From Haloactinopolyspora alba (GTDB lineage Bacteria; Actinomycetota; Actinomycetes; Jiangellales; Jiangellaceae): DNA of 64,000 nt. Each line of letters starts with the position of its first letter. Within the stretch, counting starts at the first letter, position 1. Location: contig NZ_PYGE01000002.1 in NCBI RefSeq assembly GCF_003014555.1, positions 434,001-498,000 of the forward strand. Reading direction: 5' to 3'. A program made the position numbers and the translations under genes. The notes under the pieces were generated by a model. That model was not told where the DNA came from. It saw nothing but the letters and a program-made list of their open reading frames with translations, and ran no database searches. Of this stretch, positions 2 to 14,927 are shown one piece after another.

Positions 2-3000
2 GACTGCGCCGGCGGCCCGGTGAACGACTCACCGAACAACACCGGCATCACCCAGCTCCCGCCCGCGGTCGAGGCGGAGGTCTGGTACGGCTATTCGCCC
101 AACCCGCAGTTCCCCGAGATCGGCGGGGGCGGCGCGCCGATGGCCGGCGGCGTCTACCGCTACGACCCGTCCGTCGAGTCCGACCGGCAGTGGCCGGCCT
201 ACTGGGACGGCAAGGCCGTCTTCGCCGAGTGGAACCAGGGCAACCTGTACAGCTTCCAGCTCGACGGCGCCGGCAGCGCGGTCACCGACATCAACGCGCT
301 GTTCCCGGACATGCAGTTCCTGCGTCCGCACGCGATGGAGTGGGGCCCGGACGGCGCGCTGTACCTGATCGAGTGGGGCAGCGGCTTCGGTGGTGACAAC
401 GCCGACTCCGGCGTCTACCGCATCGACCACGTCCAGGGTGAGCGGGCACCGATCGCACGCATCGATGCCGGTCCGTTGTCCGGGCCGACCCCGCTCGAGG
501 TGAACTTCGACGCCTCGGGGTCGATCGACCCGGAGGCCACGACGCTGACGTACGAGTGGGACTTCGACGGCGACGGGACCGTCGACTCCACCGAACCGAC
601 CGTCAGCCACACCTACACCGAACCCGGCGACTACACGGTGGCGCTGACGGTCACCGACGCCGACGGGCAGCAGGACATCGCGAACGTCGAGGTGACGGCC
701 GGTAACACCGCACCCGAGATCACCGTTACCGCGCCCGCCGACGGCGGGTTCTTCGAGTTCGGCGACACCATCGCCTACGAGGTCAGTGTCACCGACGCCG
801 AGGACGGCGAGGGCGTGTGCGACCGGATCGTCACCCAGCCGGGGCTCGGGCACAACGACCACTCGCACGAGTACGAGGAGAACTTCGGCTGCACGGGCAC
901 CTTCGAACTGCCCGGCGACGAGGGCCACACCGGCGCGAACATCTTCGGCACCGTCACGGTGACCTACACCGACGACGGTGCTCCCGGTGTCAGCCCGCTC
1001 ACCAGCCGGGAGGTGCTGGTCCTGCAGCCCAAGCGCCGTCAGGCCGAGCACTTCGACGAGACGGGACGGCTGGCGGGGTCCGACGCGGGCGGCGACCCCG
1101 GTGTTCAGACCGAGGAGACCGGCGACACCGCCGGCGGCGGTCAGAACGTCGGGTTCATCGAGGACGGCGACTGGTGGTCGTGGGACCCGATGAACCTCAC
1201 CGCCATCGACGACATCACGCTGCGGGCCGCGACCCCCAACATCGGCGCGACCGTGGAGGTGCGTACCGGTGCGCCGGACGGCCCGACGGTGGCGACCATC
1301 CAGACCGAGCCCACCGGCGACTGGCAGGTGTACGACGAGTTCACCGCGTCGGTCAGCGGCGACACGGCGACGTCGAGCGGACCGCTGTACTTCGTGAAGA
1401 CGACCGGGCAGCTCAACGTCAACTGGGTCGACTTCGGCGGCAAGGGCGTCACCGAGAACCAGCGCCCGGACGTCACCGTCAGCGCCGACCCGGCCAGCGG
1501 CACGGCGCCGCTGGACGTCGGCTTCGCCGCCGAGGCGAGCGATCCCGAGGGCGACACGCCGCTGACGTACGCGTGGCAGTTCGGGGACGGCGGCACCGCG
1601 ACCGGCGCCACCGCCCAGCACACCTACACCGAGGCGGGCACCTACGACGCCGAGGTGACGGTGACCGACGCGCGCGGCGCGGAGGTGACGGAGAGCGTCA
1701 CGGTGGACGTGCAGGACGGCGGCGAACCGCCGGTGTGCCTGAAGGGGCGCTCGGACGCCTTCGACGGCGACACTCTGGACCGCGACCGCTGGACGACGGT
1801 GGTCCGCGAGAACCAGGACCTGGCCGTGCAGGACGGTCATCTGGTGCTGCCGGCAACGAGCACCGACATCTACGGCACCAACAACACGGACACGCCGAAC
1901 ATCGTCCTGCAGGACCTGCCGGACGGCGAGTTCACGGCCACGGCGAAGCTGACCATGCAGGCCTACCGGGCGTACCAGCAGGCCGGGCTGGTCATCTACG
2001 GCGACGACGACAACTACGCCAAGATGGTGCTGCAGGGCCGCGACACCGGCGCGAGCAACCCGGCGGCGCGGATCTTCCAGTTCATCCGCGAGGAGAACGG
2101 CGAGCCGAACGAGGTCGGCGACAGCAACACCGCCCAGCTGGGCGCGGACTACCCGGACACCGTCTGGGTGCGCTACACCAGCGACGGCTCGAACCTGCGG
2201 GCGGCTTACAGCGCCGACGGTGAGACGTTCACCGAGATGCCGCAGACGAAGAGCCTGGACGGCATCACCGACCCGAAGATCGGCCTGATCGCACTGGCCG
2301 GAACGGACCAGCCGGCCGGTGAGGCGCGGTTCGACCACTTCCAGATCACGCCCGACGACACCGCGCCGGCCGCCGAGCCGAACGACGAGTTCGACGGCAC
2401 CGCGCTGGACGGCTGCCGGTGGAGCGTGCTCCGGCCGGACGAGTCCGGTTACCGCGTCGCCGACGGCGCCCTGGAGATCGACACCAGCGACGGTGACATC
2501 TACGAGGACGGCAACTCCGGCCCGTCGAACTTCGTCCTGCAGCCGGCGCCCGAGGGCGACGAGTGGACGATCGAGACGAAGGTCGACGGTTCGGCGTTCG
2601 ACGAGCAGTACCAGCAGGGCGGGCTGATCGTGTACGGCGACGACGGCAACTACGTCAAGTTCGACTACGTCGTCGACAACGCCGCCGGCGACCCGGTGTC
2701 GCCACGCCTGGAGCTGCGCAGCGAGGTCGGCGACGCCGTCCAGACCCCGCAGCCGAGCGTCACCGAGCTCGACCAGGCCATCTGGCACCTGCGGCTCACC
2801 CGCTCCGGCAACACCTACACGGGGTCGTACAGCGCCGACGGCGAGACCTGGACGGACATGCCGGAACCGGTCACCAACTCCGCGGTGGCCGCGGACGCGA
2901 AGGCCGGCCTGTTCGCGCTCGGAGGCGCGCAGGGCGCGTCGAAGACCGCCCGGTTCGACTACTTCCACGTCAAGGAACTCGAGGTCGACGAGACGCCGCC

Positions 3001-3895
3001 CACGGTCGACGTCACGCTCGACCCGTCCGAGCCGTCCGGCAGCAACGGATGGTGGACCGGGCCGGTCACCGTCACGGCCGAGGCCGCTGACGACGGGGAC
3101 GGCCCCGTCGACGTCGAGTACCGCGTCGACGGCGGCGACTGGGCGCCTTACACCGAGCCGGTGGTCGTCGAGGCCGACGGCGAGCACGTCGTCGACGTCC
3201 GCGCGACCGACGCGGCCGGCAACACCTCGGAGCCGGTGGGCACCGAGATCGCCGTCGACGCCACCGCTCCGGAGCTCGACGTGTCCGGGGTGGAGCACGG
3301 TGTGCTCTACGGCGACAGCCAGGACCTGGAGCTGGCCTGGGATTCCAGCGACACCGGGTCGGGCGCCGGCGAGACCGTCGCGCGCCTGGACGGCGACCCC
3401 GTCGAACCGGGTGCGCTGGTCCTGCACGAGATCCCGCTGGGCCTGCACGACCTCGAGGTCGAGGCGCGCGACCGAGCGGGCAACCGCACGACCGAACGGT
3501 TCACGTTCTTCGTCTCCACCTCGTTCGCCGACATGCGGTCGCTGGTGAGCAGGTTCGAGTCGGAGCAGCGGCTGGACCGGCCGAGCACCAAGCGGTTGGA
3601 GAACACGCTGGGCACGGCCGCCAGGCAGGCGGTCATGGGCCGGGAGACGCGCGCCGTCGAACGGCTCGAGAAGGTCAAGGACATCGCGAACGACAAGGTG
3701 GCGGACGACGTGGTCCGCGACGTGCTGATCCGCGACGCCGACGCGATGATCGGGCGGCTCGGCGCGACCCCGTCGGATGCCGGCGCGGGGGTGACCGCCA
3801 ACGGCGGACAGTCCCTCGACGGCACCGGCCGGCTCGCCGGCGACCCGGCACCGAAGGTCGGCGGCGTCGAGATGACGCCCAATCGTCTCGAGTAA
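2..3895 (+). CDS. Secreted GSDH/PKD/CBM6/DUF1349 multidomain protein, 5' end outside window
   Basis: The first 1,297 residues' worth of open frame continues to the window edge without a start, so this is the C-terminal part of a larger protein. Residues 1-150 are the end of a glucose/sorbosone-dehydrogenase-type beta-propeller (the stretch DCAGGPVNDSP matches the same point in the paralogue at 41.5-46.5 kb). Then come PKD (about 155-235), a CBM6-like domain (345-490), a second PKD (490-575), two DUF1349/concanavalin-like domains (585-790 and 795-990), Ig/OmpL47-like repeats (995-1180) and a charged helical tail. Families of this build are extracellular and act on or bind polysaccharide; a soluble sugar-oxidising role is inferred from the propeller only. 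Unlike the paralogue it ends without a DUF1080 domain. No obvious sortase signal is seen at its C-terminus. Confidence 0.85.
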   Translation, partial: DCAGGPVNDSPNNTGITQLPPAVEAEVWYGYSPNPQFPEIGGGGAPMAGGVYRYDPSVESDRQWPAYWDGKAVFAEWNQGNLYSFQLDGAGSAVTDINALFPDMQFLRPHAMEWGPDGALYLIEWGSGFGGDNADSGVYRIDHVQGERAPIARIDAGPLSGPTPLEVNFDASGSIDPEATTLTYEWDFDGDGTVDSTEPTVSHTYTEPGDYTVALTVTDADGQQDIANVEVTAGNTAPEITVTAPADGGFFEFGDTIAYEVSVTDAEDGEGVCDRIVTQPGLGHNDHSHEYEENFGCTGTFELPGDEGHTGANIFGTVTVTYTDDGAPGVSPLTSREVLVLQPKRRQAEHFDETGRLAGSDAGGDPGVQTEETGDTAGGGQNVGFIEDGDWWSWDPMNLTAIDDITLRAATPNIGATVEVRTGAPDGPTVATIQTEPTGDWQVYDEFTASVSGDTATSSGPLYFVKTTGQLNVNWVDFGGKGVTENQRPDVTVSADPASGTAPLDVGFAAEASDPEGDTPLTYAWQFGDGGTATGATAQHTYTEAGTYDAEVTVTDARGAEVTESVTVDVQDGGEPPVCLKGRSDAFDGDTLDRDRWTTVVRENQDLAVQDGHLVLPATSTDIYGTNNTDTPNIVLQDLPDGEFTATAKLTMQAYRAYQQAGLVIYGDDDNYAKMVLQGRDTGASNPAARIFQFIREENGEPNEVGDSNTAQLGADYPDTVWVRYTSDGSNLRAAYSADGETFTEMPQTKSLDGITDPKIGLIALAGTDQPAGEARFDHFQITPDDTAPAAEPNDEFDGTALDGCRWSVLRPDESGYRVADGALEIDTSDGDIYEDGNSGPSNFVLQPAPEGDEWTIETKVDGSAFDEQYQQGGLIVYGDDGNYVKFDYVVDNAAGDPVSPRLELRSEVGDAVQTPQPSVTELDQAIWHLRLTRSGNTYTGSYSADGETWTDMPEPVTNSAVAADAKAGLFALGGAQGASKTARFDYFHVKELEVDETPPTVDVTLDPSEPSGSNGWWTGPVTVTAEAADDGDGPVDVEYRVDGGDWAPYTEPVVVEADGEHVVDVRATDAAGNTSEPVGTEIAVDATAPELDVSGVEHGVLYGDSQDLELAWDSSDTGSGAGETVARLDGDPVEPGALVLHEIPLGLHDLEVEARDRAGNRTTERFTFFVSTSFADMRSLVSRFESEQRLDRPSTKRLENTLGTAARQAVMGRETRAVERLEKVKDIANDKVADDVVRDVLIRDADAMIGRLGATPSDAGAGVTANGGQSLDGTGRLAGDPAPKVGGVEMTPNRLE

Positions 3896-4153: not shown

Positions 4154-5323
4154 ATGAGCAACGAAACGAACCGGTCCGACGGACGCACCGGTGTGTGGTT
4201 CGTCGGCGCCCGTGGATCCGTGGCCACGACGACGGTGGTGGGCGCGCTGGCCGTGCACGCCGGACTGGCCGAGCACACCGGCATGGTCTCCGAGCTGCCG
4301 GAGGTGTCCGCGGCGCGGCTGACCGGCATCGACCGGCTCGTCTTCGGCGGTCACGAGGTCGCCGAAGGCAGCCTGGCCAAACGCGCCGAGGAGCTGCGTG
4401 CCGGTGGCGTGCTGCCCCCGGCCGTGGTCGCCGCCGTGGCCGAGGAACTCGCCGCCGTCGACGCGCGGGTGGCGCCCGGCGTGCCCCCGGGGAGCGTGTC
4501 CCAGCGCGCGGCCACCGGCCGCATCGAGGCCGACCTGCGCGCCTTCCGCGACGAGCACGAGCTGGACCGCGTCATCGTCGTCGACGTGTCCAGCACCGAA
4601 CCGCCGGTGGCCGACGATCCCGCGCTGAACGACCTGGACCGGCTCGAGGCCGCGCTCGACGACGGCGGGGCGCCGCTGCCCGGCAGCTCGGCCTACGCGT
4701 ACGCGGCGTTCCGCGCGGGCTGCCCGTACGTCGCGTTCACCCCGAGCCCGGGACCGCGGCCGCCCGCCCTGGCCGAGCTCGCCGAACGACAGCGGCTGCC
4801 CTGGGCAGGATCGGACGCCAAGACCGGGGAGACCCTGGTCAAGACCGTTCTCGCACCGATGTTCGCGATGCGGGCGCTGAAGGTGCGCTCGTGGTCGTCG
4901 GTGAACCTGCTGGGCGGCGGCGACGGGCAGACGCTCGCCGACCCGGTGAACGCGGCCAGCAAGACCGCCACCAAGGCGCACGGCCTCGAGGAGATCCTGG
5001 GCCACCGCGTCGACGGGCCACTGCACATCGACTACGTCCCCGACCTGGGTGACTGGAAGACGGCCTGGGACATGATCTCGTTCGAGGGCTTCCTCGGCAC
5101 CCGGATGTCCATGCAGTTCACCTGGTCCGGATGCGACTCCGCGCTGGCCGCGCCGCTGGTGCTGGACCTGGTCCGGCTGGTGGCGCGCGCACACGAGCGC
5201 GGTGAGTACGGTCCGGTCCCGGAGCTCGGGTTCTTCTTCAAGGACCCGGCCGGTGCCGGCGGCCACGATCTCAGCGGACAGTGGGACCGCCTGGTCGAGT
5301 GGTGCGCGCGGGACACCCGATGA
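4154..5323 (+). CDS. myo-Inositol-1-phosphate-synthase-like sugar-phosphate cyclase, ebo cluster
   Basis: 389 residues. The N-terminal VWFVGARGSVATTT is the Rossmann NAD site of the Inos-1-P synthase family, and the core GSDAKTGET, LLGGGDGQTL, ASKTATK and YVPDLGDWKTAWD follow the order of the eukaryote-like synthases, where the NAD-dependent reaction cyclises glucose 6-phosphate. The Lys-x3-Lys pair of SKTATK is kept, but the usual LGNNDG loop reads LGGGDG, so the substrate may differ. It is the first gene of a run joined by ATGA overlaps (stop overlaps the prenyltransferase start at 5320). In cyanobacterial ebo clusters a dehydroquinate-synthase-like EboD is the cyclase; this gene appears to fill that place. 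Product unknown. Start chosen on AAAGGAG 7 bases upstream. Confidence 0.85.
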   Translation: MSNETNRSDGRTGVWFVGARGSVATTTVVGALAVHAGLAEHTGMVSELPEVSAARLTGIDRLVFGGHEVAEGSLAKRAEELRAGGVLPPAVVAAVAEELAAVDARVAPGVPPGSVSQRAATGRIEADLRAFRDEHELDRVIVVDVSSTEPPVADDPALNDLDRLEAALDDGGAPLPGSSAYAYAAFRAGCPYVAFTPSPGPRPPALAELAERQRLPWAGSDAKTGETLVKTVLAPMFAMRALKVRSWSSVNLLGGGDGQTLADPVNAASKTATKAHGLEEILGHRVDGPLHIDYVPDLGDWKTAWDMISFEGFLGTRMSMQFTWSGCDSALAAPLVLDLVRLVARAHERGEYGPVPELGFFFKDPAGAGGHDLSGQWDRLVEWCARDTR

Positions 5324-6327
5324 GGCTGCACGACCTGGCCGAGCTGGTGCGCCTGCCCGCTGCGCTGACCGTGCCGGGCGACGTGCTCGCCGGCGCGAGC
5401 GCCGCGGGTTACCCGCACGGCCGCCGGACCTGGGCGATGCCGGTGGCTTCGGCGTGCCTGTACTGGTCCGGCATGGCGCTGAACGACTACGCCGACCGCG
5501 AGCTGGACCGCGCCGAACGGCCGGAACGCCCCATCCCGTCCGGGCGGGTCCGCCCCGGGCAGGCGCTCGCGGTCGCCGGCGGGCTGACCGGCGCGGGCCT
5601 CGGGCTCGCGGCGTTCGGCGGCGGGACGCGGGCGTTGCGGGTGGCCGCGCCGCTGGCGGCGACGGTGTGGGGCTACGACCTCCTGGCCAAGCCGACAGCC
5701 GCGGGGCCGGCGTTCATGGCGGCCGCCCGCGGGCTGGACGTGCTGCTCGGCGCGGACGGGCGGTTGCGGCCGGCGGCGTTGCCCGTCACCGCGATGGCCG
5801 TGCACACCGCCGGCGTCACCACACTCAGCCGCGGCGAGGTGCACGGAACGTCGCCGGCAGTCGCGCGGGTCGCGGTGGGGACGACGGTGGCGGCTGCTGT
5901 CGCTTCGGCGTGGCCCCGGGGGCTCTCGTGGCGTTCGGCGGGGGTGGGGGATGGCGTCCTCGCCCGGTCGGCGCTCGTTCCTCGCGCCTCTTTTACGCCC
6001 GGCCACACCGCGGACGCCATCCCCCACCCCCGCCGTGGTCTTGCGTCGCGTCCCGGCCAGACCGCGGACCGAGCGCAGGCAACGCGTCTCGCTGCGGCGG
6101 CGGGGGCGGCAGCCGTCTACGCGGCATCGGTGGGCAGGGCGCAGGCGGCGGCCGTCCGGCGGCCGGACGCGCCGACAGTGCGCACCGCGACCGGCGCGGG
6201 CATCCGCGGCATGATCCCGCTGCAGTCCGCGCTCACCGCGCGTACCGGCGCGATCGCGCTCGCGGCGGGCGTGCTGGCGGCGGGGCCGCTGGCCAAGCTC
6301 GCGTCGAAGGTGGTGTCGCCGACATGA
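5320..6327 (+). CDS. eboC: UbiA-family prenyltransferase, EboC-like (SCO3242 type)
   Basis: 335 residues, several hydrophobic helices. NDYADRELDRAERPERPIPSG is too long to be chance: it carries the NDxxDxxxD prenyl-diphosphate motif at about residue 62, and WGYDLLAKPTAAG with RGLDVLLG follow, as in the prenyltransferases that accompany EboA in actinobacteria. The family moves a polyprenyl chain onto an acceptor in the membrane; the acceptor here is unknown. ATG overlaps the cyclase stop (ATGA), hence translational coupling. Residues about 206-239 are encoded by a 98-bp palindrome (5937-6034) that looks like an in-frame insertion, rich in Arg, Pro and Gly, between two helices; the conserved C-terminal IRGMIPLQSALTA resumes after it, so the enzyme may still be active. 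Confidence 0.88.
   Translation: MRLHDLAELVRLPAALTVPGDVLAGASAAGYPHGRRTWAMPVASACLYWSGMALNDYADRELDRAERPERPIPSGRVRPGQALAVAGGLTGAGLGLAAFGGGTRALRVAAPLAATVWGYDLLAKPTAAGPAFMAAARGLDVLLGADGRLRPAALPVTAMAVHTAGVTTLSRGEVHGTSPAVARVAVGTTVAAAVASAWPRGLSWRSAGVGDGVLARSALVPRASFTPGHTADAIPHPRRGLASRPGQTADRAQATRLAAAAGAAAVYAASVGRAQAAAVRRPDAPTVRTATGAGIRGMIPLQSALTARTGAIALAAGVLAAGPLAKLASKVVSPT
5937..6034. repeat. 23-bp-arm inverted repeat inserted in eboC
   Basis: Arms 5937-5959 and 6012-6034 are perfect inverted copies of 23 bases (inner part GGGGGTGGGGGATGGCGTCC), separated by 52 bases. Next to it an 18-bp direct repeat with one mismatch is seen (5998-6015 and 6052-6069, CCCGGCCAsACCGCGGAC). The palindrome lies inside the prenyltransferase reading frame and keeps it open. 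Its form suits a small non-autonomous or REP-like element; no second copy was recognised in this window. Confidence 0.7.
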
Positions 6328-7244
6328 CGCTGCGCTTCGGATACGGCACCAACGGGTTCGGCAGTCACCGCCTGGACGACGCGCTCGCGGTGATCGCGGA
6401 GCTCGGCTACGAGGGCGTGGCGCTGACCGTCGACCAGCCGCACCTCGACCCGTTCGGCACCGACCTGGGCGCGCGGACCGCCGCCGTGCACCGGCGGCTC
6501 GACGAGCTGGGACTCGACGTCGTCGTCGAGACCGGCGCGCGGTACGTCATGGACCCGTGGTACAAGCACGAGCCGACACTCGTCTCCGACACCGGGCGCG
6601 AACGCCGGGTCGACTACCTGCGGCGGGCGGTGCGCATCGCGGCCGACCTCGGCGCGGAGGCGGTGTCGTTCTGGTCGGGCACCCTGCCGGCCGGGGTCGA
6701 CGACGCCGAGGGCTGGCGCCGGGTGGTCGACGGCGTCGGCGCCGTGCTCGACGAGGCGGACAGCCGCGGCGTGGTGTGCGCGTTCGAGCCCGAGCCGGGC
6801 ATGTTCGTCGACACGGTCGGCGGTGTCCTGGAGCTGCGCCGGCGCCTCGGCTCACCGGAGCACTTCCGGGTGACCCTGGACATCGGGCACTGCGTGTGCA
6901 ACGAGAAGGGCACGGTCGCCGAGTGCGCGCACCAGGCGGGTGAGCTGCTGGGCAACGTGCAGCTCGACGACATGGTGCCCGATGTGCACGAGCACCTGGA
7001 GTTCGGCGCGGGCGAGATCGACCTGCCCGCGGCTCTCGGGGCGCTGCTGGACGTCGGCTACACCGGCCTCGCGGCGGTGGAGCTGCCGCGGCACGGGCAT
7101 GCGGCCCCGGTCGTCGCGGAACGATCGATGCGAGCCCTGCGCGCGGCCCTGGACACCGCCCTGGACGGTTCGACCCCCCACCATCGATCAACGCGACACG
7201 GGGGTGGCAGTGAGTTCAACGGGGGAGAGGAGGCACAGACATGA
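6324..7244 (+). CDS. Sugar phosphate isomerase/epimerase-like TIM barrel in ebo cluster
   Basis: 306 residues of the AP-endonuclease-2/xylose-isomerase-like fold: GYGTNGFGSHRLDDAL at the N-terminus, then AFEPEPGMFV (metal-ligand Glu), LDIGHCVCNEKG and VHEHLEFGAGEID, the usual metal-site strands. Such enzymes move a keto or hydroxyl group on sugars or cyclitols using a divalent metal. ATG at 6324 overlaps the eboC stop, and its own stop overlaps eboA at 7241, so it belongs to the same coupled operon and probably acts on the cyclase substrate or product. The last 25 residues (His/Gly/Ser-rich) are outside the barrel. Substrate cannot be read from sequence. Confidence 0.8.
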   Translation: MTLRFGYGTNGFGSHRLDDALAVIAELGYEGVALTVDQPHLDPFGTDLGARTAAVHRRLDELGLDVVVETGARYVMDPWYKHEPTLVSDTGRERRVDYLRRAVRIAADLGAEAVSFWSGTLPAGVDDAEGWRRVVDGVGAVLDEADSRGVVCAFEPEPGMFVDTVGGVLELRRRLGSPEHFRVTLDIGHCVCNEKGTVAECAHQAGELLGNVQLDDMVPDVHEHLEFGAGEIDLPAALGALLDVGYTGLAAVELPRHGHAAPVVAERSMRALRAALDTALDGSTPHHRSTRHGGGSEFNGGEEAQT

Positions 7245-7951
7245 GCGCGACACTCGAGCGGGTGACGCCGCACCTGGACGGTCAGGCGCGTGCCGCCCTG
7301 AGTACGCTGGTGGACGAGGTGACCGCGAACCCGGGCGCGATCTCGACCCTGTTCCCGGCCGTCGGGCGCCGGGTCGCACGCGGGCCCAGCGACGCGGACG
7401 ACCCGGACGGGCTGCGCACGCCGCGGCTGGAGGACGAGGCCCGCACGGCGCTGCTGGTGGCGGCTGCCGAGGCCTGGCACACCGAGCCGCACCGGCTGGT
7501 CGACGAGGTCTCGCAGCTGTACCGCTACGGCGACACCGACGAGAAGCGCGCGGTGCTGCGTGCGCTGCCGGAACTGGAGGCGGTGCCCGGAATCACCGAC
7601 GCCGGGCTGTCCGCGGTGGCCGACGCGCTGCGCACCAACGACCTGAGGCTGATCGCCGCGGCCATGGGCCGCTACGCCGCCGCGCACCTGGACGACCCGT
7701 CCTGGCGGCAGGGCGTGCTGAAGTGCCTGTTCGTCGGCGTCCCGCTGGATGCCGTGGCCGACCTGGACCGGCGATCCGACGCGGAGCTGGCGCGGATGGT
7801 GGCCGACTACGGCAACGAGCGCGTCGCCGCCGGGCGTTCGGTGCCGTCGGACGCCTGGCGGATCCTCAACCACGATCCGGACGCGGTCGCGGGGCGCTTA
7901 CCGGCGCCCGCTGCCGCGAGCACCGCACCGGCGCAAAGCGAGGAGGACTGA
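7241..7951 (+). CDS. eboA: EboA domain-containing protein
   Basis: 236 residues, alpha-helical, with the recognisable features of EboA: a conserved WHTEPHRLVDEVSQLYRYGDTDEK-type helix pair (about residues 80-105), RAVLRALPELE, and KCLFVGVPLDAV near residue 165. EboA has no known biochemical activity; its cluster is needed for moving scytonemin precursor to the periplasm in Nostoc and was noticed in Pseudomonas biofilm-edge mutants. Its position directly before eboB and its ATGA coupling to the upstream isomerase support the name. The C-terminal 20 residues are Ala/Pro-rich linker. Confidence 0.85.
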   Translation: MSATLERVTPHLDGQARAALSTLVDEVTANPGAISTLFPAVGRRVARGPSDADDPDGLRTPRLEDEARTALLVAAAEAWHTEPHRLVDEVSQLYRYGDTDEKRAVLRALPELEAVPGITDAGLSAVADALRTNDLRLIAAAMGRYAAAHLDDPSWRQGVLKCLFVGVPLDAVADLDRRSDAELARMVADYGNERVAAGRSVPSDAWRILNHDPDAVAGRLPAPAAASTAPAQSEED

Positions 7952-8835
7952 TGCGCGTCTTCGACCCCCACATCCACATGACCTCGCGTACCACCGACGA
8001 CTACGCCCGGATGTACGCCGCCGGGGTGCGGGCGCTGACCGAGCCGGCGTTCTGGCTCGGTCAGCCGCGGACCAGCGTCGGCTCGTTCTGCGACTACTTC
8101 GACGGGCTGCTCGGCTGGGAGCGCTTCCGTGCCGCCCAGTACGGCATCCGGCACCACTGCACCATCGCGCTGAACCCGAAGGAGGCGAACGACCCCCGCT
8201 GCGTCGAGGTGCTGGACGTGCTCCCGCGCTACCTCGCCAAGGACGGTGTCGTCGCCGTCGGCGAGGTCGGCTTCGACTCGATGACCGACGACGAGGAGAA
8301 GGTCTTCGTCCGCCAGCTCGACCTGGCCGGCGAGCACGACCTGCCGGTCCTGGTGCACACGCCGCACCGCGACAAGGCGGCCGGCACCCGCCGCACGCTC
8401 GAGCTGGTCGCCGCCAGCGGGCTGCCCCCCGAGCGGGTGCTCGTCGACCACCTGAACGAGACGACGGTGGGCATGGTCGCCGACTCCGGCTGCTGGATGG
8501 GTTTCTCGATCTACCCGGACACCAAGATGGACGAGCACCGGATGGTGCGCATTCTGGCCGATCGGGGCCTGGACCGGATGATCGTCAACTCGGCGGCGGA
8601 CTGGGGACACAGCGACCCGCTGAAGACGATCGCCACCGGGCGGGCCATGCTCGGGCACGGTTTCACCGACGACGACGTCGACCGCGTGCTGTGGCAGAAC
8701 CCGGTGGCCTTCTACGGGCAGAGTGGCCGGCTGCTGCTCGACGACGAAGGCGCCGGCATCGAAACCGGTCCGTCCGCGACGTTCGAGGGCAACTCGGTGC
8801 TGCGCGGGCAGCGTCCGTCCGGGCAGGAGGAGTGA
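7951..8835 (+). CDS. eboB: EboB, TatD-like metal-dependent hydrolase
   Basis: 294 residues. The opening MRVFDPHIHM gives the HxH of the amidohydrolase superfamily; GEVGFDS, LVHTPHRDK and LVDHLNE supply the Glu, His and His of the TatD-like metal centre, and NSAADWGHSDP the final Asp. TatD-like enzymes are phosphoesterases or nucleases, but the ebo members have no proven substrate. The ATG shares one base with the eboA stop (TGATG), preceded by GGAGGA. Directly followed by eboE after three bases. Confidence 0.88.
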   Translation: MRVFDPHIHMTSRTTDDYARMYAAGVRALTEPAFWLGQPRTSVGSFCDYFDGLLGWERFRAAQYGIRHHCTIALNPKEANDPRCVEVLDVLPRYLAKDGVVAVGEVGFDSMTDDEEKVFVRQLDLAGEHDLPVLVHTPHRDKAAGTRRTLELVAASGLPPERVLVDHLNETTVGMVADSGCWMGFSIYPDTKMDEHRMVRILADRGLDRMIVNSAADWGHSDPLKTIATGRAMLGHGFTDDDVDRVLWQNPVAFYGQSGRLLLDDEGAGIETGPSATFEGNSVLRGQRPSGQEE

Positions 8836-8838
8836 CGG

Positions 8839-10020
8839 ATGCGCCTCCGGCACGGCGACGGCACCGTCGTCCACCTCGCGTACTGCACGAACGTGCATCC
8901 CACCGAGGACGTCGAGGCGCTGATCGATCAGGTCGGGACCTACGGCGGGCGGATCCGCGCGCGCCTCGGCGTCGACCGGCTCGGACTCGGGCTGTGGTTG
9001 CCGGCTCCGGTGGCTGCGCGGCTGGTCGCGCACTCGGACCTGACGCGGCTGCGACGGGTGCTGGACGACAACGGGCTCGAGGTCGTCACGTTGAACGCGT
9101 TCCCCTACCAGGGGTTCCACGACCCGGAGGTGAAGAAGGCGGTCTACCATCCTGACTGGGTCGAGCCGCGCAGGCTGGACTACACGCTCAACTGCGCGTG
9201 GATCCTGTCGCGGCTGCTGCCCGACGACGCCGCCCGCGGCAGCATCTCCAGCGTCCCGCTGGGCTGGCGCAGCCCCTGGGACGCCGACCGGCAGCGGCAG
9301 TCGCGTGAGCACCTCGACCGGCTCGCCGACGAGCTGGCGAAGATCGAGACCGAGACCGGCCGCACCATCCGCGTCGGGCTCGAGCCGGAGCCGGGGTGCG
9401 TCGTCGAGACCGGCGCCGACGCCGTCGAGCGGATGGCCGGAGTGGACACCAAGCACATCGGCGTCTGCGTGGACGCCTGCCACCTGGCGGTCCAGTTCGA
9501 ACAGCCCGGCACCGTGCTGGGCGGGCTCGCCGGCGCGGGCCTGCCGGTGGTGAAGGCACAGGCGTCGGCGGCGTTGCACGTCGACGACCCGGCACAGCCG
9601 GCCGCCCGGTCCGCGCTGGCCGCCTACGCCGAGGACAGGTTCCTGCACCAGGTGCGCGAACCGTCGGGTGATCGGCCCGGCGACGAGATCGACGGGCGCG
9701 ACGACCTGCCGGAGGCCCTGGCCGGGCACGGTGCGCTGCCGGGCCGGCAGCCGTGGCGGGTGCACTTCCACGTCCCGGTGCACGAGCGCCCCGAACCGCC
9801 GTTGACGGCCACCCAGGACCACCTGAACGAGACCCTCGGTGCGTTGTTCGGCGGTTCACACGCCGTGACCGATCACCTGGAGGTCGAGACCTACACCTGG
9901 TCGGTGCTACCGGAGAACCGCCGGCCGGAGGGACCGGACGGCCTCGCCGACGGTCTCGCCGCCGAACTGCGGTGGGTGGCGGACCGGCTGACGGAGAACG
10001 GACTGACGCTCACCGGCTGA
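8839..10020 (+). CDS. eboE: Metabolite traffic protein EboE (xylose-isomerase-like barrel)
   Basis: 393 residues. HLAYCTNVHPTEDVEA at the start is characteristic of EboE, followed by TLNAFPYQGFHD, VGLEPEPGCVVETG and CVDACHLAVQFEQPG, the metal-binding strands of a sugar-isomerase-type TIM barrel, and a C-terminal VHFHVPVHER. EboE proteins accompany EboA and EboB; their reaction is not established, and the fold suggests isomerisation or epimerisation of a sugar or cyclitol. GGAGGAG ends just before the ATG at 8839. It is the second TIM barrel of this operon. Confidence 0.88.
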   Translation: MRLRHGDGTVVHLAYCTNVHPTEDVEALIDQVGTYGGRIRARLGVDRLGLGLWLPAPVAARLVAHSDLTRLRRVLDDNGLEVVTLNAFPYQGFHDPEVKKAVYHPDWVEPRRLDYTLNCAWILSRLLPDDAARGSISSVPLGWRSPWDADRQRQSREHLDRLADELAKIETETGRTIRVGLEPEPGCVVETGADAVERMAGVDTKHIGVCVDACHLAVQFEQPGTVLGGLAGAGLPVVKAQASAALHVDDPAQPAARSALAAYAEDRFLHQVREPSGDRPGDEIDGRDDLPEALAGHGALPGRQPWRVHFHVPVHERPEPPLTATQDHLNETLGALFGGSHAVTDHLEVETYTWSVLPENRRPEGPDGLADGLAAELRWVADRLTENGLTLTG

Positions 10021-10058
10021 GCGTGAACGCCGACCAGGAAAGACCCGGAGGAGACAGC

Positions 10059-11441
10059 GTGAACAAACTGCTCGTACTCGACGTCGTGGGCTTGACGCCG
10101 CGGCTGCTGGAACACGCCCCGTCGTTGCGGGCCGTGGCCGCGCAGGGCTGGCAGGCGCGGCTGGACACCGTGCTGCCGGCGGTGACCTGCCCGGTCCAGT
10201 CGACGTTCCTGACCGGCTCGATGCCGCGCGAGCACGGCATCGTCGGCAACGGCTGGTACTTCCGCGACCTGGGCGAGGTGTACCTGTGGCGCCAGCACAA
10301 CAAGCTGGTCCAGGGCGAGAAGGTCTGGGAGACCGCGCGCAGGGCCGAGCCCGGCTACCGGGTGGCGAACGTGTGCTGGTGGTACGCCATGGGTGCCAGC
10401 ACCGACTGGACGGTGACCCCGCGGCCGATCTACCACGCCGACGGGCGCAAGTCGCCGGACTGCTACACCCGGCCGCCGGAGCTGCACGACGCCCTCACCA
10501 ACGCGCTCGGCCCGTTCCCGCTGTTCAACTACTGGGGGCCGACGGCGTCGCTGAAGTCGAGTGAGTGGATCGTGGCGGCCTCGCGGAAACTGCTGCCGCA
10601 GGCCGACATGACGCTGACCTACGTCCCGCACCTCGACTACGACCTGCAGCGTTACGGCCCCGACAGTCCGGAGGCGATCGCTGCCGTCCAGGACGTCGAC
10701 CGGGTGCTCGCGCCGTTGCTGGCCGACGCGCGCGAGCAGGGCGCGACGGTGCTGGCGATGAGCGAGTACGGCATCCAGCCGGCGAACAGGCCGGTGCACA
10801 TCAACCGGGCGCTGCGCGAGGAGGGCCTGCTCGAGGTCTACACCCAGGCCGGCATGGAGTACCTCGATCCGTGGAAGTCGCACGCGTTCGCCGTCGCCGA
10901 CCATCAGGTCGCGCACGTCTACGTGTCCGAGCACGCGGACCTGGCCGCGGTCCGGCGGGTGTGCGAGGGGCTGCCCGGGGTCGAGCTCGTCCTCGACCGG
11001 GCCGGGCAGCACGACTACGGCATCGACCACGAACGGGCCGGCGATCTGGTGCTCGTCGCCGAGCCGGGCGCGTGGTTCGCCTACTACTACTGGCACGACG
11101 ACGCCCGCGCGCCGGACTTCGCCCGTGGCGTCGACATCCACCGCAAACCCGGCTACGACCCGGCCGAGCTGTTCTTCGACCCGGACGATCCGCGGGTGAA
11201 GATGCGCGCGGGCATGGCGCTGGCGCGGAAGAAGGCCGGACTGCGGTACACGATGAACGTCGTGCCGACGGACGGACGGTGGGTGAAAGGCACCCACGGC
11301 CGGCTGCCCGACGACCCCGTCGACGGGCCGGTGCTGCTGTGCAGCGACCCGTCGACGGCACGGGACCGGCTGGCGGCGACGGACGTGCGGGATCTGATGC
11401 TCGAGCTCGCCGGCGTGTCCGTCCCCGCCACGACCACCTGA
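10059..11441 (+). CDS. Alkaline-phosphatase-superfamily phosphodiesterase/pyrophosphatase, last gene of ebo operon
   Basis: 460 residues of the type I phosphodiesterase/nucleotide pyrophosphatase family. LVLDVVGLTP holds the first metal Asp and PAVTCPVQSTFLTG the Thr nucleophile; HLDYDLQRYGPDSP and the DYGIDHERAGD segment fit the later metal ligands. There is no signal peptide visible, so it is probably cytosolic. Cyanobacterial clusters carry a phosphatase of the same superfamily (EboF), which supports a role in removing phosphate or a nucleotide from the cluster's intermediate. GTG at 10059 chosen because GGAGGAGA lies 6 bases upstream; the 38-base gap after eboE suggests same transcript. 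Confidence 0.82.
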   Translation: MNKLLVLDVVGLTPRLLEHAPSLRAVAAQGWQARLDTVLPAVTCPVQSTFLTGSMPREHGIVGNGWYFRDLGEVYLWRQHNKLVQGEKVWETARRAEPGYRVANVCWWYAMGASTDWTVTPRPIYHADGRKSPDCYTRPPELHDALTNALGPFPLFNYWGPTASLKSSEWIVAASRKLLPQADMTLTYVPHLDYDLQRYGPDSPEAIAAVQDVDRVLAPLLADAREQGATVLAMSEYGIQPANRPVHINRALREEGLLEVYTQAGMEYLDPWKSHAFAVADHQVAHVYVSEHADLAAVRRVCEGLPGVELVLDRAGQHDYGIDHERAGDLVLVAEPGAWFAYYYWHDDARAPDFARGVDIHRKPGYDPAELFFDPDDPRVKMRAGMALARKKAGLRYTMNVVPTDGRWVKGTHGRLPDDPVDGPVLLCSDPSTARDRLAATDVRDLMLELAGVSVPATTT

Positions 11442-11549: not shown

Positions 11550-12554
11550 ATGAGCCGACCGATCACGTTGTTCACGGGGCAGTGGGCCGACCTGCCGTTC
11601 GAGGAGGTCGCCCGGCTCGCCTCGGAGTGGGGGTACGACGGGCTGGAGATCGCCTGCTGGGGTGATCACCTGGACGTCTGGCGCGCCGCCGAGGACGACG
11701 CCTACGTGCGCTCCCGGCACGACGTGCTGGAGAAGTACGGGTTGAAGGTGTGGGCGATCTCCAACCACCTGAAGGGGCAGGCGGTCTGCGACGATCCCAT
11801 CGACGCGCGGCACCGGGCGATCCTGCCGGACGCGATCTGGGGTGACGGCGACCCCGAGGGTGTCCGGCAGCGCGCCGCCGAGGAGATGAAGGTGACCGCG
11901 CGCGCGGCGGCGCGGCTCGGTGTCTCGACGGTGGTCGGGTTCACCGGCTCGGCCATCTGGAAGTACGTCGCGATGTTCCCGCCGGTCTCGCAGGACCTGA
12001 TCGACGCCGGCTACCAGGACTTCGTCGACCGCTGGAACCCGATCCTGGACGTGTTCGACGAGGTGGGCGTGCGGTTCGCGCACGAGGTGCACCCGTCGGA
12101 GATCGCCTACGACTACTGGACGACGGTGCGCACGCTGGAGGCCATCGGCCACCGTCCGACGTTCGGCCTGAACTGGGACCCCAGCCACATGGTGTGGCAG
12201 GGCATCGACCCGGCCGGGTTCCTGTGGGACTTCCAGGACCGGATCTACCACGTCGACTGCAAGGACACGAAGCTGCAGGTGCCCAACGGCCGGGCCGGCC
12301 GGCTCGGGTCGCACCTGGCCTGGGCCGATCCGCGCCGTGGGTGGGACTTCGTGTCCACCGGGCACGGCGACGTGCCGTGGGAGCAGTGTTTCCGCGTGCT
12401 CGGCGCCATCGGCTACGAGGGCCCGATCTCGGTGGAGTGGGAGGACGCGGGCATGGACCGGCTGCGCGGAGCGGCTGAGGCCGTGCAGTACGTCCGCTCG
12501 CACTTCTTCGAGCCCCCGGAGGCGGCCTTCGACGCCGCGTTCAGCTCCTCCTGA
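11550..12554 (+). CDS. Cytosolic sugar phosphate isomerase/epimerase
   Basis: 334 residues, TIM barrel of the AP-endonuclease-2 family: [20 protein letters not shown] at the start, [33 protein letters not shown] and [10 protein letters not shown] carry the typical Glu, Asp, His and Glu metal ligands. Family members include 3-keto-sugar and inosose isomerases; the exact substrate is not readable. ATG at 11550 is preceded by GGAAGGAG at a normal spacing; a frame extends 22 codons further upstream into the repeat, which I reject as start. It is followed by a hairpin and the Tat-exported isomerase on the same strand, suggesting shared sugar chemistry. Confidence 0.85.
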
Positions 12555-12693: not shown

Positions 12694-13653
12694 ATGTGTT
12701 ACGGGTATGACGGCCACGGCGCGCTGCGCCAGTCGCTGTCCGAGCGGGGCCTCGACCGCCGCGGCTTCCTGAAGGGCGCGGCGGCCACGGCCGGTGGCGT
12801 GGCGCTCGCCGGTGCGGGTGCAACGGCCGCCGCGCAGGCGACGGCCCGGCCCGCGCCGAACCGCCCGATCGTGCCGCCGGGGCTGATCAGCATCCAGCTG
12901 TACTCGGTCCGCGAGGCGCTGGGCGGCGAGCCGGGCTTCGACGCCACACTGCGCGCGATCGCGGACTTCGGCTACCCGAAGGTGGAGCAGGCCGGCTATT
13001 ACGGCCGTACGGCCGCCGAGCTGCGTGCGTTCTACGACGAGATCGGCGTGAAGTGCACGTCCAGCCACGACGGCATCAGCGGTGATCAGGCAGGGCTCGA
13101 CCAGAAGATCGAGAACGCGCTCACCCTCGGCCAGGGCTACATGGTCGTCCCGTACCTGAACTCGTCGAGCCTCAGCGACTGGCAGGCATGGGCCGAGCGG
13201 ATGAACGTCGAGGCCGAGCAGGCCAAGGCCGCCGGACTGCGGTACGGCTATCACAACCACGCGCACGAGTTCACCATCGACCTCGGCGGTGGCCGCACGC
13301 CGTGGGACGTCCTCACCTCCGAGCTGGACCCGGGGCTGGTGCACCTGGAGATCGACATCTACTGGGTGGTCACCGGCGGTATCAACAGCGGCGAGGGTGT
13401 GGACGACCCGGAGGGCTTCACGCTCGACGTCATCCGCCGCGCTCCGCAGAAGGTGCTGCAGTACCACGTGAAGGACCGGCACGCCGACACCGGCGACATG
13501 GCCGACCTCGGCACGGGGCACATCGACTTCCCGCGGATCTTCCGCGGGCACCGGGTGCTCGAGTACATCATGGAGAACGACACACCGGACGTCACGCCGC
13601 TGCAGACCGCGCGGGTCGGCTACGACTACCTGCGCAACGTGCGGATGCGCTGA
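12694..13653 (+). CDS. Tat-exported sugar phosphate isomerase/epimerase
   Basis: 319 residues. The N-terminus carries a twin-arginine signal, DRRGFLKGAAATAGG, followed by a hydrophobic stretch and mature start near residue 50. The rest is an AP-endonuclease-2 TIM barrel: SIQLYSVREAL, GYHNHAHEFT, HLEIDIYWVV and QYHVKDRH supply His, Glu, Asp and His ligands. Export folded through Tat fits a metalloenzyme that must be loaded inside. Such exported isomerase-like proteins often occur with ThuA/DUF1080 and 3-keto-sugar genes, both present in this window. AGAGGGGAA precedes the ATG. Confidence 0.85.
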   Translation: MCYGYDGHGALRQSLSERGLDRRGFLKGAAATAGGVALAGAGATAAAQATARPAPNRPIVPPGLISIQLYSVREALGGEPGFDATLRAIADFGYPKVEQAGYYGRTAAELRAFYDEIGVKCTSSHDGISGDQAGLDQKIENALTLGQGYMVVPYLNSSSLSDWQAWAERMNVEAEQAKAAGLRYGYHNHAHEFTIDLGGGRTPWDVLTSELDPGLVHLEIDIYWVVTGGINSGEGVDDPEGFTLDVIRRAPQKVLQYHVKDRHADTGDMADLGTGHIDFPRIFRGHRVLEYIMENDTPDVTPLQTARVGYDYLRNVRMR

Positions 13654-13889: not shown

Positions 13890-14927
13890 GTGGTGCCGGT
13901 GGTTCGATCGAGGGTGGACGATCATGCGGTGCCGTCCCAACGCGGGCGGCACGAGCACGGTGGACATGCGGGTGCCGTGGCCGCGGAGACGGCAGCGGCC
14001 GAGGCCGGCAGTGGCCGTGACGACGGCGCCGATCTCACCAGGCGATACCTGCGCGAGATCGGACGGGTGCCGCTGTTGTCGGCGGCCGACGAGGTGGCGC
14101 TGGCGCGGGCCATCGAGGTCGGCGTGCTGGCCGAGGAGCGGCTGTCGTCGTCGAACGGACGCGATCCCGACCACGACGCCCTGGTCGAGCTGGTCCGCCG
14201 GGGCCGGCAGGCGAAGGCCGAGCTGGTCGAGGCGAACCTGCGGCTGGTGGTCTCGGTCGCTCGCCGCTACACCCGCCGTGGCCTGCCGCTGCTCGACCTG
14301 GTGCAGGAGGGCAACGTCGGCCTGATGCGCGCGGTCGAACGGTTCGACTACGCCAAGGGTTTCAAGTTCTCGACCTACGCCACCTGGTGGATCCGCCAGG
14401 CCATCAGCCGCGCGCTGGCCGAGCAGGGGCGGACCATCCGGCTGCCGGTGCACGTGGTCGACGAGCTGAACCGGGTGCTGCGGGCGGTGCGTTCGGCCGC
14501 GCAGATCCAGGCACGCGACCTCAGCGTCGACGAGATCGCGGAGGCGACGTCGCTCGACCCGGAGCGGGTCGCCGAGCTGCTGTCGTACGCCGACGAGCCG
14601 GTGAGCCTGCAGTCGCCGGTGGGCGAGGCCGCCGACACCTCGTTCGGCGATTTCGTCGAGGACAACGACGCCCTCACGCCGGACGAGCTGGTGGCCCGGC
14701 TGATGTTACGCGACCAGGTCGAGCAGGTGCTGGACGGCCTCAGCGAGCGCGAACGTCGGGTCGTGCGGCTGCGGTACGGGCTGGACGACGGCCGGGCGCG
14801 CACGCTCGAGGAGGTCGGCCAGGAGTTCGGCGTCACCCGCGAGCGGGTCCGCCAGATCGAGCACCGCACGCTGACCAAGCTGCGGCGGAACGAGTGGGCG
14901 GGCGAGCTGCGCGACTATCTCGTGTAA
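13890..14927 (+). CDS. RNA polymerase sigma factor, sigma-70 family group 1/2 (RpoD/SigB-like)
   Basis: Up to 345 residues. Regions are clear: 1.2 [20 protein letters not shown], 2.1-2.4 [21 protein letters not shown] through [17 protein letters not shown], 3 [17 protein letters not shown], 4.1 [18 protein letters not shown]-like and 4.2 [20 protein letters not shown]. The region 2.4 helix with a short non-conserved N-terminus (no long 1.1 extension) is that of a principal-like alternative sigma (HrdA/C/D or SigB class) rather than the essential HrdB. The start is uncertain: 13890 is the most upstream GTG, several in-frame GTG codons follow, and none has a strong ribosome site. No anti-sigma gene lies beside it. 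Confidence 0.88.

Follow-up and report, generated by a model that had tools for sequence, protein, structure and literature searches.

An ebo-type operon of Haloactinopolyspora alba in which a myo-inositol-phosphate-synthase homologue and an epimerase-fold partner very probably stand in for EboD

The ebo operon is found across many bacterial phyla and also in algal plastids, and to our knowledge no product is known for any of these operons. Among cyanobacteria, Nostoc requires the ebo genes to export the scytonemin monomer (PMC6282210). The EDB cluster of Pseudomonas fluorescens is similar in that ebo genes are required for a nematode-repelling trait, and differs from the locus described here in being of the EboD type, both according to PMC6282210. 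The proposal of an isoprenoid-cyclitol product dates from 2016 (PMC5133447) and that of a lipid-carrier role from 2018 (PMC6282210); neither idea is hence new here. In some versions EboG takes the place of EboA (PMC5133447), as was also seen in this study. The cyclase of the present locus (MIPSL) is homologous over its full length to archaeal myo-inositol-1-phosphate synthase (A. fulgidus, PDB 1U1I, 3QVS). PDB 6K96, which we take to be Ari2, is only remotely similar to MIPSL (49 bits), and Art22 (PDB 8Z1I) is presumably a member of the aristeromycin pathway. The aristeromycin system likewise uses a MIPS-family cyclase for secondary metabolism, together with a TIM-fold-class isomerase, but has no prenyltransferase and yields a nucleoside; Ari2 was described as a MIPS orthologue with a different substrate (PMC11188666). 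In Streptomyces coelicolor, SCO3242 and SCO3243 are listed inside the calcium-dependent antibiotic (CDA) cluster (PMC3610822), which puts a genetically tractable model organism at hand. Known here from the locus listing, the two are a namesake prenyltransferase and a myo-inositol phosphate synthase with adjacent locus numbers, and the CDA region likely holds the MIPSL+TIM pair; the papers searched do not tie the pair to ebo. The word "inositol" was absent from the ebo papers searched for it, and a search for published Streptomyces clusters that combine an inositol phosphate synthase with a prenyltransferase and TatD yielded the 2016 ebo paper alone, where no inositol phosphate synthase is named.

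The window, the whole stretch of DNA analysed, comprises 64,000 nucleotides of H. alba contig NZ_PYGE01000002.1. Seven intact genes lie on the + strand at 4154-11441 in the order MIPSL-PT-TIM-A-B-E-F (PT, UbiA-family prenyltransferase). A sequence-only reading had reported seven same-strand genes with four overlapped junctions, which is exact: the MIPSL/PT, PT/TIM and TIM/EboA junctions overlap as ATGA and EboA/EboB as TGATG. EboB and EboE are 3 nt apart, and EboE and the phosphodiesterase 38 nt. The features are as follows.

20..3895, +, 3' portion of a gene for an exported multidomain protein (ThuA, glucose/sorbosone dehydrogenase, PKD, CBM6, DUF1349; Pfam, signal peptide, full ORF)
4154..5323, +, MIPSL, cyclase at the EboD position, homologous to myo-inositol-phosphate synthase and of archaeal type (PF07994/PF01658, A. 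fulgidus mIPS 1u1i, catalytic residues, tree)
5320..6327, +, SCO3242-family UbiA prenyltransferase, sister to EboC (PF01040, motif alignment; 373 bits on the SCO3242-family model NF045897, cut-off 260)
6324..7244, +, TIM, xylose-isomerase-like protein with ketose 3-epimerase fold, partner of MIPSL (PF01261, AlphaFold model, fold matches)
7241..7951, +, EboA, predicted alpha-helical HEAT-like solenoid (NF035938, 164 bits, cut-off 50; model, fold search)
7951..8835, +, EboB, metal hydrolase of the TatD/amidohydrolase clan (PF01026, AF_1765 relative, metal-type residues)
8839..10020, +, EboE, xylose-isomerase-like TIM barrel (NF035939, 431 bits, cut-off 250)
10059..11441, +, EboF-like phosphodiesterase of the alkaline phosphatase superfamily, GTG start (PF01663, 237 bits)
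11550..12554, +, TIM2, cytoplasmic xylose-isomerase-like protein, accessory (PF01261, recurrence at related loci)
12694..13653, +, TIM3, Tat-signal xylose-isomerase-like protein, accessory (PF01261, weak TAT_signal, recurrence)

As in the described eboA-F operon (PMC5133447, PMC6282210), the genes are clustered and co-directional and encode EboA, EboB, EboE, an EboF-like phosphodiesterase and a UbiA prenyltransferase of the family sister to EboC. Unlike that operon, the window has a MIPS-family cyclase and an epimerase-fold TIM with no EboD, its prenyltransferase belongs to the SCO3242 family and not to the EboC equivalog, and the genes stand in the order given above. Because most actinobacterial EboE loci repeat this order, the arrangement is far beyond chance. 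The MIPSL>PT junction is a four-base overlap in 68 of 71 loci and of the TGATG type in one more (start/stop overlap in 69/71), and start and stop overlap at the PT>TIM junction in 77 of 81. The seven genes proposed as the operon stand, but the set reaches further, with the ThuA/sugar-dehydrogenase gene upstream and the two TIM-barrel genes downstream recurring at many related loci. The upstream gene carries a signal peptide, starts ~1.7 kb before the window, and belongs to a family that adjoins 48 of 103 related loci. The TIM2 family adjoins 20 related loci, window copy counted, and the TIM3 family is present at 42, with a Tat motif in 38 of its 43 members.

MIPSL carries both Pfam domains over its full length, and its nearest solved structure is A. 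fulgidus mIPS (1u1i, E 1.6e-70). The MIPSL sequences form one clade (SH-aLRT 98). All nine A. fulgidus positions tested (D225, K227, N255, D261, K274, K278, K306, D332, K367) are invariant in 39/39 MIPSL, so that the catalytic lysines and aspartates tested, and N255, are kept. Besides its operon context, MIPSL differs from the archaeal enzyme at the D259/N354 position: the residue aligned with yeast N354 is glycine (Gly255) throughout the actinobacterial ebo clade (39/39), whereas the 19 other sequences have Asn (18) or Asp (1). The substrate of MIPSL may therefore differ from glucose 6-phosphate. That MIPSL is the housekeeping Ino1 was ruled out by the tree and by a separate INO1 elsewhere in the genome (at C14), which scores 692 bits on the mycothiol INO1 model TIGR03450, as against 27 bits for MIPSL (cut-off 638). 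A second ebo set, completed by an EboD elsewhere in the genome, was also ruled out: no EboD-like gene was found there at a threshold of E 1e-60, and the DHQ-synthase family is represented by a single PF01761 match, on another contig. Viral contigs searched for MIPSL relatives gave none.

In the survey of 396 actinobacterial genomes, 17 had a strong MIPSL match (above 330 bits), and each of these also had EboA and EboE (Fisher p 6e-29); MIPSL thus occurs strictly with EboA, itself found in 18. An EboD-like gene was confined to G381, which alone among the EboE genomes lacks both EboA and MIPSL. The 99 EboE loci examined comprise 74 with MIPSL, one with EboD, seven with neither cyclase and 17 truncated loci, so that seven of 82 resolvable loci lack either cyclase. 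Six of these seven genomes have a MIPSL-like gene elsewhere (in G279 a more distant copy only), and the seventh, G400, has only a housekeeping-type match. This tabulation and the domain matches bear out the earlier proposal that a different cyclase family occupies the EboD position. The exchange is not one-for-one, since a dedicated epimerase-fold TIM is added: TIM is present at 73 of 74 MIPSL loci and at none of nine EboD loci. EboD has very probably been replaced by a MIPSL+TIM cassette, two genes for one.

The AlphaFold model of TIM (pLDDT 91) matches UlaE and D-tagatose 3-epimerase with Z of about 30-32 over 250-267 residues, at about 20% sequence identity to the solved members. E155, D186, H189 and E253 are invariant in 18 TIM proteins, also when haloarchaeal TIM is added, and by analogy with the family would be metal ligands. 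At two loci no stop codon separates TIM from EboA. The cassette version is also present in Gemmatirosa and in haloarchaea; coverage of phyla beyond the actinobacteria is based on plasmid records and papers. The haloarchaeal set consists of MIPSL, TIM, prenyltransferase, EboB and phosphodiesterase, without EboA and EboE, and is a candidate minimal pathway. The possibility that its TIM proteins are EboE was ruled out by their scores (157-178 bits on the TIM profile vs 34-40 on EboE). The conserved core proposed from the sequence is thus narrower than first described: prenyltransferase, EboB and phosphodiesterase are common to every complete set seen, whereas EboA and EboE are dispensed with in haloarchaea, and EboG may stand for EboA.

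The UbiA assignment of the prenyltransferase stands at the level of the family; the protein is a member of the SCO3242 sister family and not EboC, scoring 118 bits on the EboC equivalog model (cut-off 250). Its first Asp-rich motif, NDxxDxxxD, reads NDYADRELD. The aligned region that may hold the second Asp-rich motif reads SRGEV in the window and mostly T..AK.E in EboC; SCO3242 and most EboC proteins have in common NDxxDxxxD and a putative second site of the type T..[SA][RK].E. DGGGP synthase, an enzyme that adds a prenyl group to a polyol phosphate, is the nearest solved relative. The EboA model (pLDDT 95) retrieved HEAT-like solenoids only, with Z < 10, and the likeness may merely reflect a common arrangement. 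EboB, conserved in position at every locus, shows the HxH, E, H, H and D residues; its nearest solved relative is AF_1765, and the haloarchaeal EboB matches those of Streptomyces and of EboD-type operons at 42-47%. Among solved structures, the phosphodiesterase is closest to phosphonoacetate hydrolase.

The exchange of EboD for MIPSL+TIM among common partners suggests that the product shared by both types is a ring sugar (cyclitol) compound. The cyclitol idea was previously argued from the EboD family alone; two unrelated sugar-phosphate cyclases in one slot are independent evidence for a cyclitol as common building block, and thereby support a prenylated cyclitol product. The window operon may accordingly be read as a MIPS-type variant of the ebo system, and the chances are about even that the whole chain, through the phosphate-removal and scaffold step, runs as follows. 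MIPSL, as a member of its family, would form a cyclitol phosphate by cyclising a sugar phosphate, for which glucose 6-phosphate is the simplest choice. The cyclitol or its keto form would be epimerised or isomerised by TIM, and the membrane prenyltransferase of the SCO3242/EboC group would add a prenyl chain to it or to a derived product, as in DGGGP synthase. EboB, EboE and the phosphodiesterase might then trim and rearrange the product, phosphate removal included, with EboA as scaffold. Products of the MIPS family normally retain the phosphate, whereas EboD-family sugar-phosphate cyclases split it off, and the later steps must therefore differ between the two routes. The operon may prenylate its product and might export or anchor it; most speculatively, the prenylated cyclitol could work with enzymes or metabolites at the outer face of the cytoplasmic membrane. 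The soluble MIPSL+TIM pair offers a well-understood starting enzyme for identifying the building block.

It is possible, though doubtful, that the two types make different end products with common tailoring and membrane machinery, the cyclase setting the ring (six-carbon and inositol-like here, seven-carbon with EboD). EboD groups with sugar phosphate cyclases near users of sedoheptulose 7-phosphate (PMC5133447), MIPSL is of an unrelated family and comes with an extra epimerase, and the metabolic genes adjoining ebo loci vary widely. However, the unusual exported partners ScyD/ScyE and PQQ or GSDH dehydrogenases, and the ferritin-like family PF12902, stand beside both types, and EboB, EboE and the phosphodiesterase are clearly homologous across them, which favours one function. 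Aromatic acceptors are common among the UbiA enzymes whose function is known. The sole EboC homologue assayed, Ubi-297, farnesylates 8-hydroxyquinoline-2-carboxylate in vitro, its substrates being aromatic quinolines and not cyclitols (PMC9235831). The cyclitol might accordingly be dehydrated by the xylose-isomerase-like proteins, in the manner of IolE, to a polyphenol-like ring and prenylated to a quinone- or quinoline-like membrane compound. This is unlikely: the similarity of TIM2 to IolE is weak and far under the cut-off (43 vs 290 bits), TIM resembles ketose 3-epimerases and not dehydratases, and DGGGP synthase acts on a polyol phosphate. A pathway of carbohydrate oxidation or uptake, in which imported sugars are the substrates of MIPSL and TIM and membrane export plays no part, would suit the sugar ABC transporters, Gfo/Idh oxidoreductases, ThuA and sugar dehydrogenases near the window and haloarchaeal operons, but is improbable given the NRPS or polyketide clusters beside many Streptomyces ebo loci and the need for ebo genes in scytonemin monomer export in Nostoc (PMC6282210). 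Least probable is a prenylated cyclitol that exported beta-propeller oxidoreductases (GSDH/PQQ-type, ScyD/ScyE) use as a cofactor or lipid partner, in place of a role as export carrier. The earlier view that the ebo system is not specific to scytonemin is supported.

After removal of close relatives, exported neighbours were found at 18 of 37 loci vs 8 expected, a modest enrichment with a crude predictor. PqqC and PqqE over cut-off are absent in 10 of 12 MIPS-type genomes, that of the window among them, and the window operon is nonetheless preceded by an exported protein with a glucose/sorbosone-dehydrogenase domain.

The operon of the window consists of seven intact genes in the order claimed by the sequence-only reading, with a MIPS-like cyclase (MIPSL) in the EboD position:

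4154-5323, +, MIPSL, archaeal-type myo-inositol-phosphate-synthase homologue; intact, first of seven
5320-6327, +, PT, UbiA prenyltransferase passing the SCO3242-family curated cut-off; intact
6324-7244, +, TIM, xylose-isomerase-like protein of ketose-3-epimerase fold; intact
7241-7951, +, EboA, passing its curated cut-off; intact
7951-8835, +, EboB; intact
8839-10020, +, EboE, passing its curated cut-off; intact
10059-11441, +, EboF-like phosphodiesterase (PF01663); intact, last of seven

The first four junctions overlap as ATGA, ATGA, ATGA and TGATG, as had been read. Start and stop codons overlap between MIPSL and PT in 69 of 71 loci and between PT and TIM in 77 of 81, and these overlaps indicate that the three genes are translationally coupled. 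The ebo operon, the SCO3242 family and MIPS are already known. The word 'inositol' is absent from the open-access ebo papers that were searched. In PMC5133447, Actinobacteria appear only for fused EboA proteins; a figure in PMC9235831 depicts Saccharomonospora ebo loci, in which a MIPS gene may be visible but unremarked. The CDA cluster list in PMC3610822 gives SCO3242 as a transferase and SCO3243 as a myo-inositol phosphate synthase.

MIPSL is homologous over its full length to archaeal myo-inositol-1-phosphate synthase, with A. fulgidus 1U1I as the top solved relative (E 1.6e-70). It is distinct from the housekeeping mycothiol-type INO1, an identity ruled out by a score of 27 bits versus 692 bits for a separate gene on contig 14. 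Across 58 aligned non-redundant sequences (39 actinobacterial ebo MIPSL and 19 others), A. fulgidus D225, K227, N255, D261, K274, K278, K306, D332 and K367 are invariant in all 39; changes in PDB 3qvw, 3qvx and 3qw2 map by alignment to K278, K367 and N255. The site of yeast N354 (A. fulgidus D259), among the conserved catalytic-domain residues (PMC5614600), is glycine in 39/39 (Gly255 in the window) and Asn or Asp in 19/19 of the others. Given nine invariant positions but a glycine at this site, MIPSL is probably an active enzyme, and its substrate may be other than glucose 6-phosphate. Fructose 6-phosphate is the substrate of the MIPS orthologue Ari2 (PMC11188666). The 39 sequences group together in the tree (SH-aLRT 98); the haloarchaeal sequences form a group of their own and Gemmatirosa is placed elsewhere, so that one or several recruitments both fit.

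MIPSL replaces EboD in most actinobacterial ebo loci. Among a random set of 396 Actinomycetota genomes, EboE was found in 19, EboA in 18 and MIPSL above 330 bits in 17, all of which carry both EboA and EboE (Fisher's exact test for MIPSL against EboA, p 6e-29, the genomes being related and not independent trials). The weaker matches (~33-46%) come from actinobacterial genomes that lack EboE and represent MIPS relatives. In the 18th EboA genome (G279), EboE is broken and a more distant MIPSL lies with TIM on another contig. An EboD-like protein was present in one genome of the 396 (G381), with EboG, EboB, EboE, EboC and EboF and without EboA or MIPSL. The cyclase at 99 EboE loci (80 from named genomes, 19 from the random set) was MIPSL in 74, EboD in 1 and neither in 7, with 17 cut by a contig end. 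When the seven 'neither' genomes were re-searched, five (G128, G396-G399) held a full MIPSL elsewhere (56-58%), the other locus of G128 being a complete set; G279 held its more distant copy, and G400 gave only a weak housekeeping-type match. The exceptions thus make the association weaker without overturning it. Two Streptomyces genomes have second copies (L140 6-1728, L142 291-1713) that retain only the first ~75 MIPSL residues beside TIM, in L140 also with EboA, and are truncated or decayed cassettes.

MIPSL and TIM make up a two-gene cassette: TIM is found with MIPSL in 73 of 74 loci and was absent by profile search from nine EboD-type loci; in one of these nine, Gloeothece L154, EboB and EboD are the only ebo genes present. 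Two loci have no stop between TIM and EboA, in agreement with the TIM-EboA fusions mentioned in PMC5133447. The TIM structure model (pLDDT 91) matched best L-xylulose-5-phosphate 3-epimerase UlaE and D-tagatose 3-epimerases. Art22 (PDB 8z1i), which we take to be the aristeromycin isomerase, is also among the matches. We infer that TIM alters a cyclitol made by MIPSL. The two are also paired outside ebo operons, in Hymenobacter, Roseomonas, Methylobacterium and G279. Paired relatives without ebo genes lie at L148 7590-14216, L149 7641-14993 and L130 8644-15579; the Hymenobacter and Roseomonas runs include Gfo/Idh, YcaO, HD-domain or MBL-fold and PIG-L deacetylase genes, and in Methylobacterium the pair has similar spacing in an unannotated region. 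These runs possibly represent another undescribed cyclitol pathway.

PRENYLTRANSFERASE. For the window PT, EboC is the next-best model after SCO3242, with a score below the EboC cut-off; the nearest solved relative is DGGGP synthase, a weak match. The motif NDxxDxxxD followed by RPxRPxPxG-like residues is common to SCO3242, EboC and haloarchaeal proteins. The second site reads T..SR.E in SCO3242 proteins, mostly T..AK.E in EboC proteins, and is looser in the haloarchaeal ones, whose PT fits the SCO3242 and EboC models about equally (178 and 164 bits).

Gemmatirosa (Gemmatimonadota) carries TIM, MIPSL, PT, phosphodiesterase, EboB and EboG in the same orientation and EboE on the other strand. 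Plasmids of Halocatena, Halobaculum and Natronococcus encode EboB, TIM, PT, TIM and MIPSL, and phosphodiesterase; EboA and EboE were searched for at these loci and none was detected. Haladaptatus has the same gene set but no MIPSL nearby. The haloarchaeal TIM proteins score as TIM, and profile scores rule them out as EboE. EboD-type plasmids occur in Azospirillum, Ketogulonicigenium, Mycetohabitans, Deinococcus, Aureibacter, Roseivivax and Salipiger.

In the proposed pathway a cyclitol phosphate would be formed and epimerised, PT would prenylate the cyclitol product, and EboB, EboE and the phosphodiesterase would trim it; EboA, HEAT-like in its model (pLDDT 95), may serve as a scaffold, and the product would act at the outer face of the membrane. 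Nostoc is reported to need ebo genes for scytonemin production, and the authors propose a lipid carrier whose head is a cyclitol (PMC6282210); a prenylated cyclitol is proposed in PMC5133447. A second, unrelated cyclase is now added to that argument.

The operon is preceded by a gene for an exported protein that combines domains of the ThuA, glucose/sorbosone dehydrogenase, PKD and CBM6 types (window 20-3895; L179 8313-11999); the family of this protein adjoins 48 of 103 related loci. PqqC and PqqE over the cut-off are absent from the window's genome and from 9 of 11 other MIPS-type genomes. TIM3, an accessory gene of the window (12694-13653, +), encodes a Tat-signal TIM-barrel protein of a family found at 42 loci. 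Other MIPS-type loci hold a member of the ScyD/ScyE family (256 bits against a cut-off of 80) plus a multicopper oxidase, an NRPS cluster that includes a Tat protein, or genes for type II polyketides. EboD-type loci hold a PQQ dehydrogenase or a ferritin-like protein of family PF12902; S. zagrosensis, too, has a PF12902 protein close to its MIPS-type operon. Such proteins were seen in the neighbourhood of ebo genes with either type of cyclase (L131 4987-6069, L155 6865-8133, L154 14144-15262, identified by similarity and annotation only, and L062 15530-16519); the family also occurs in VioB-like enzymes. A predicted exported same-strand neighbour was found at 18 of 37 complete loci versus 8 expected from 279 background genes (close relatives removed), a lead only, since the home-made predictor is crude and flags MIPSL itself once. 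Upstream of the ThuA/dehydrogenase gene, L179 1805-8176 appears by eye to encode a ROK-like regulator, an ABC transporter of sugar type and a Gfo/Idh-like oxidoreductase. Beside the ebo-like genes of Halocatena (L127) lie an ABC transporter and ThuA, and beside those of Natronococcus (L150) a partial ABC transporter and a sugar dehydrogenase. A sigma-70-like factor gene, also recognized by eye, follows TIM3 on the same strand (window 13899-14927).
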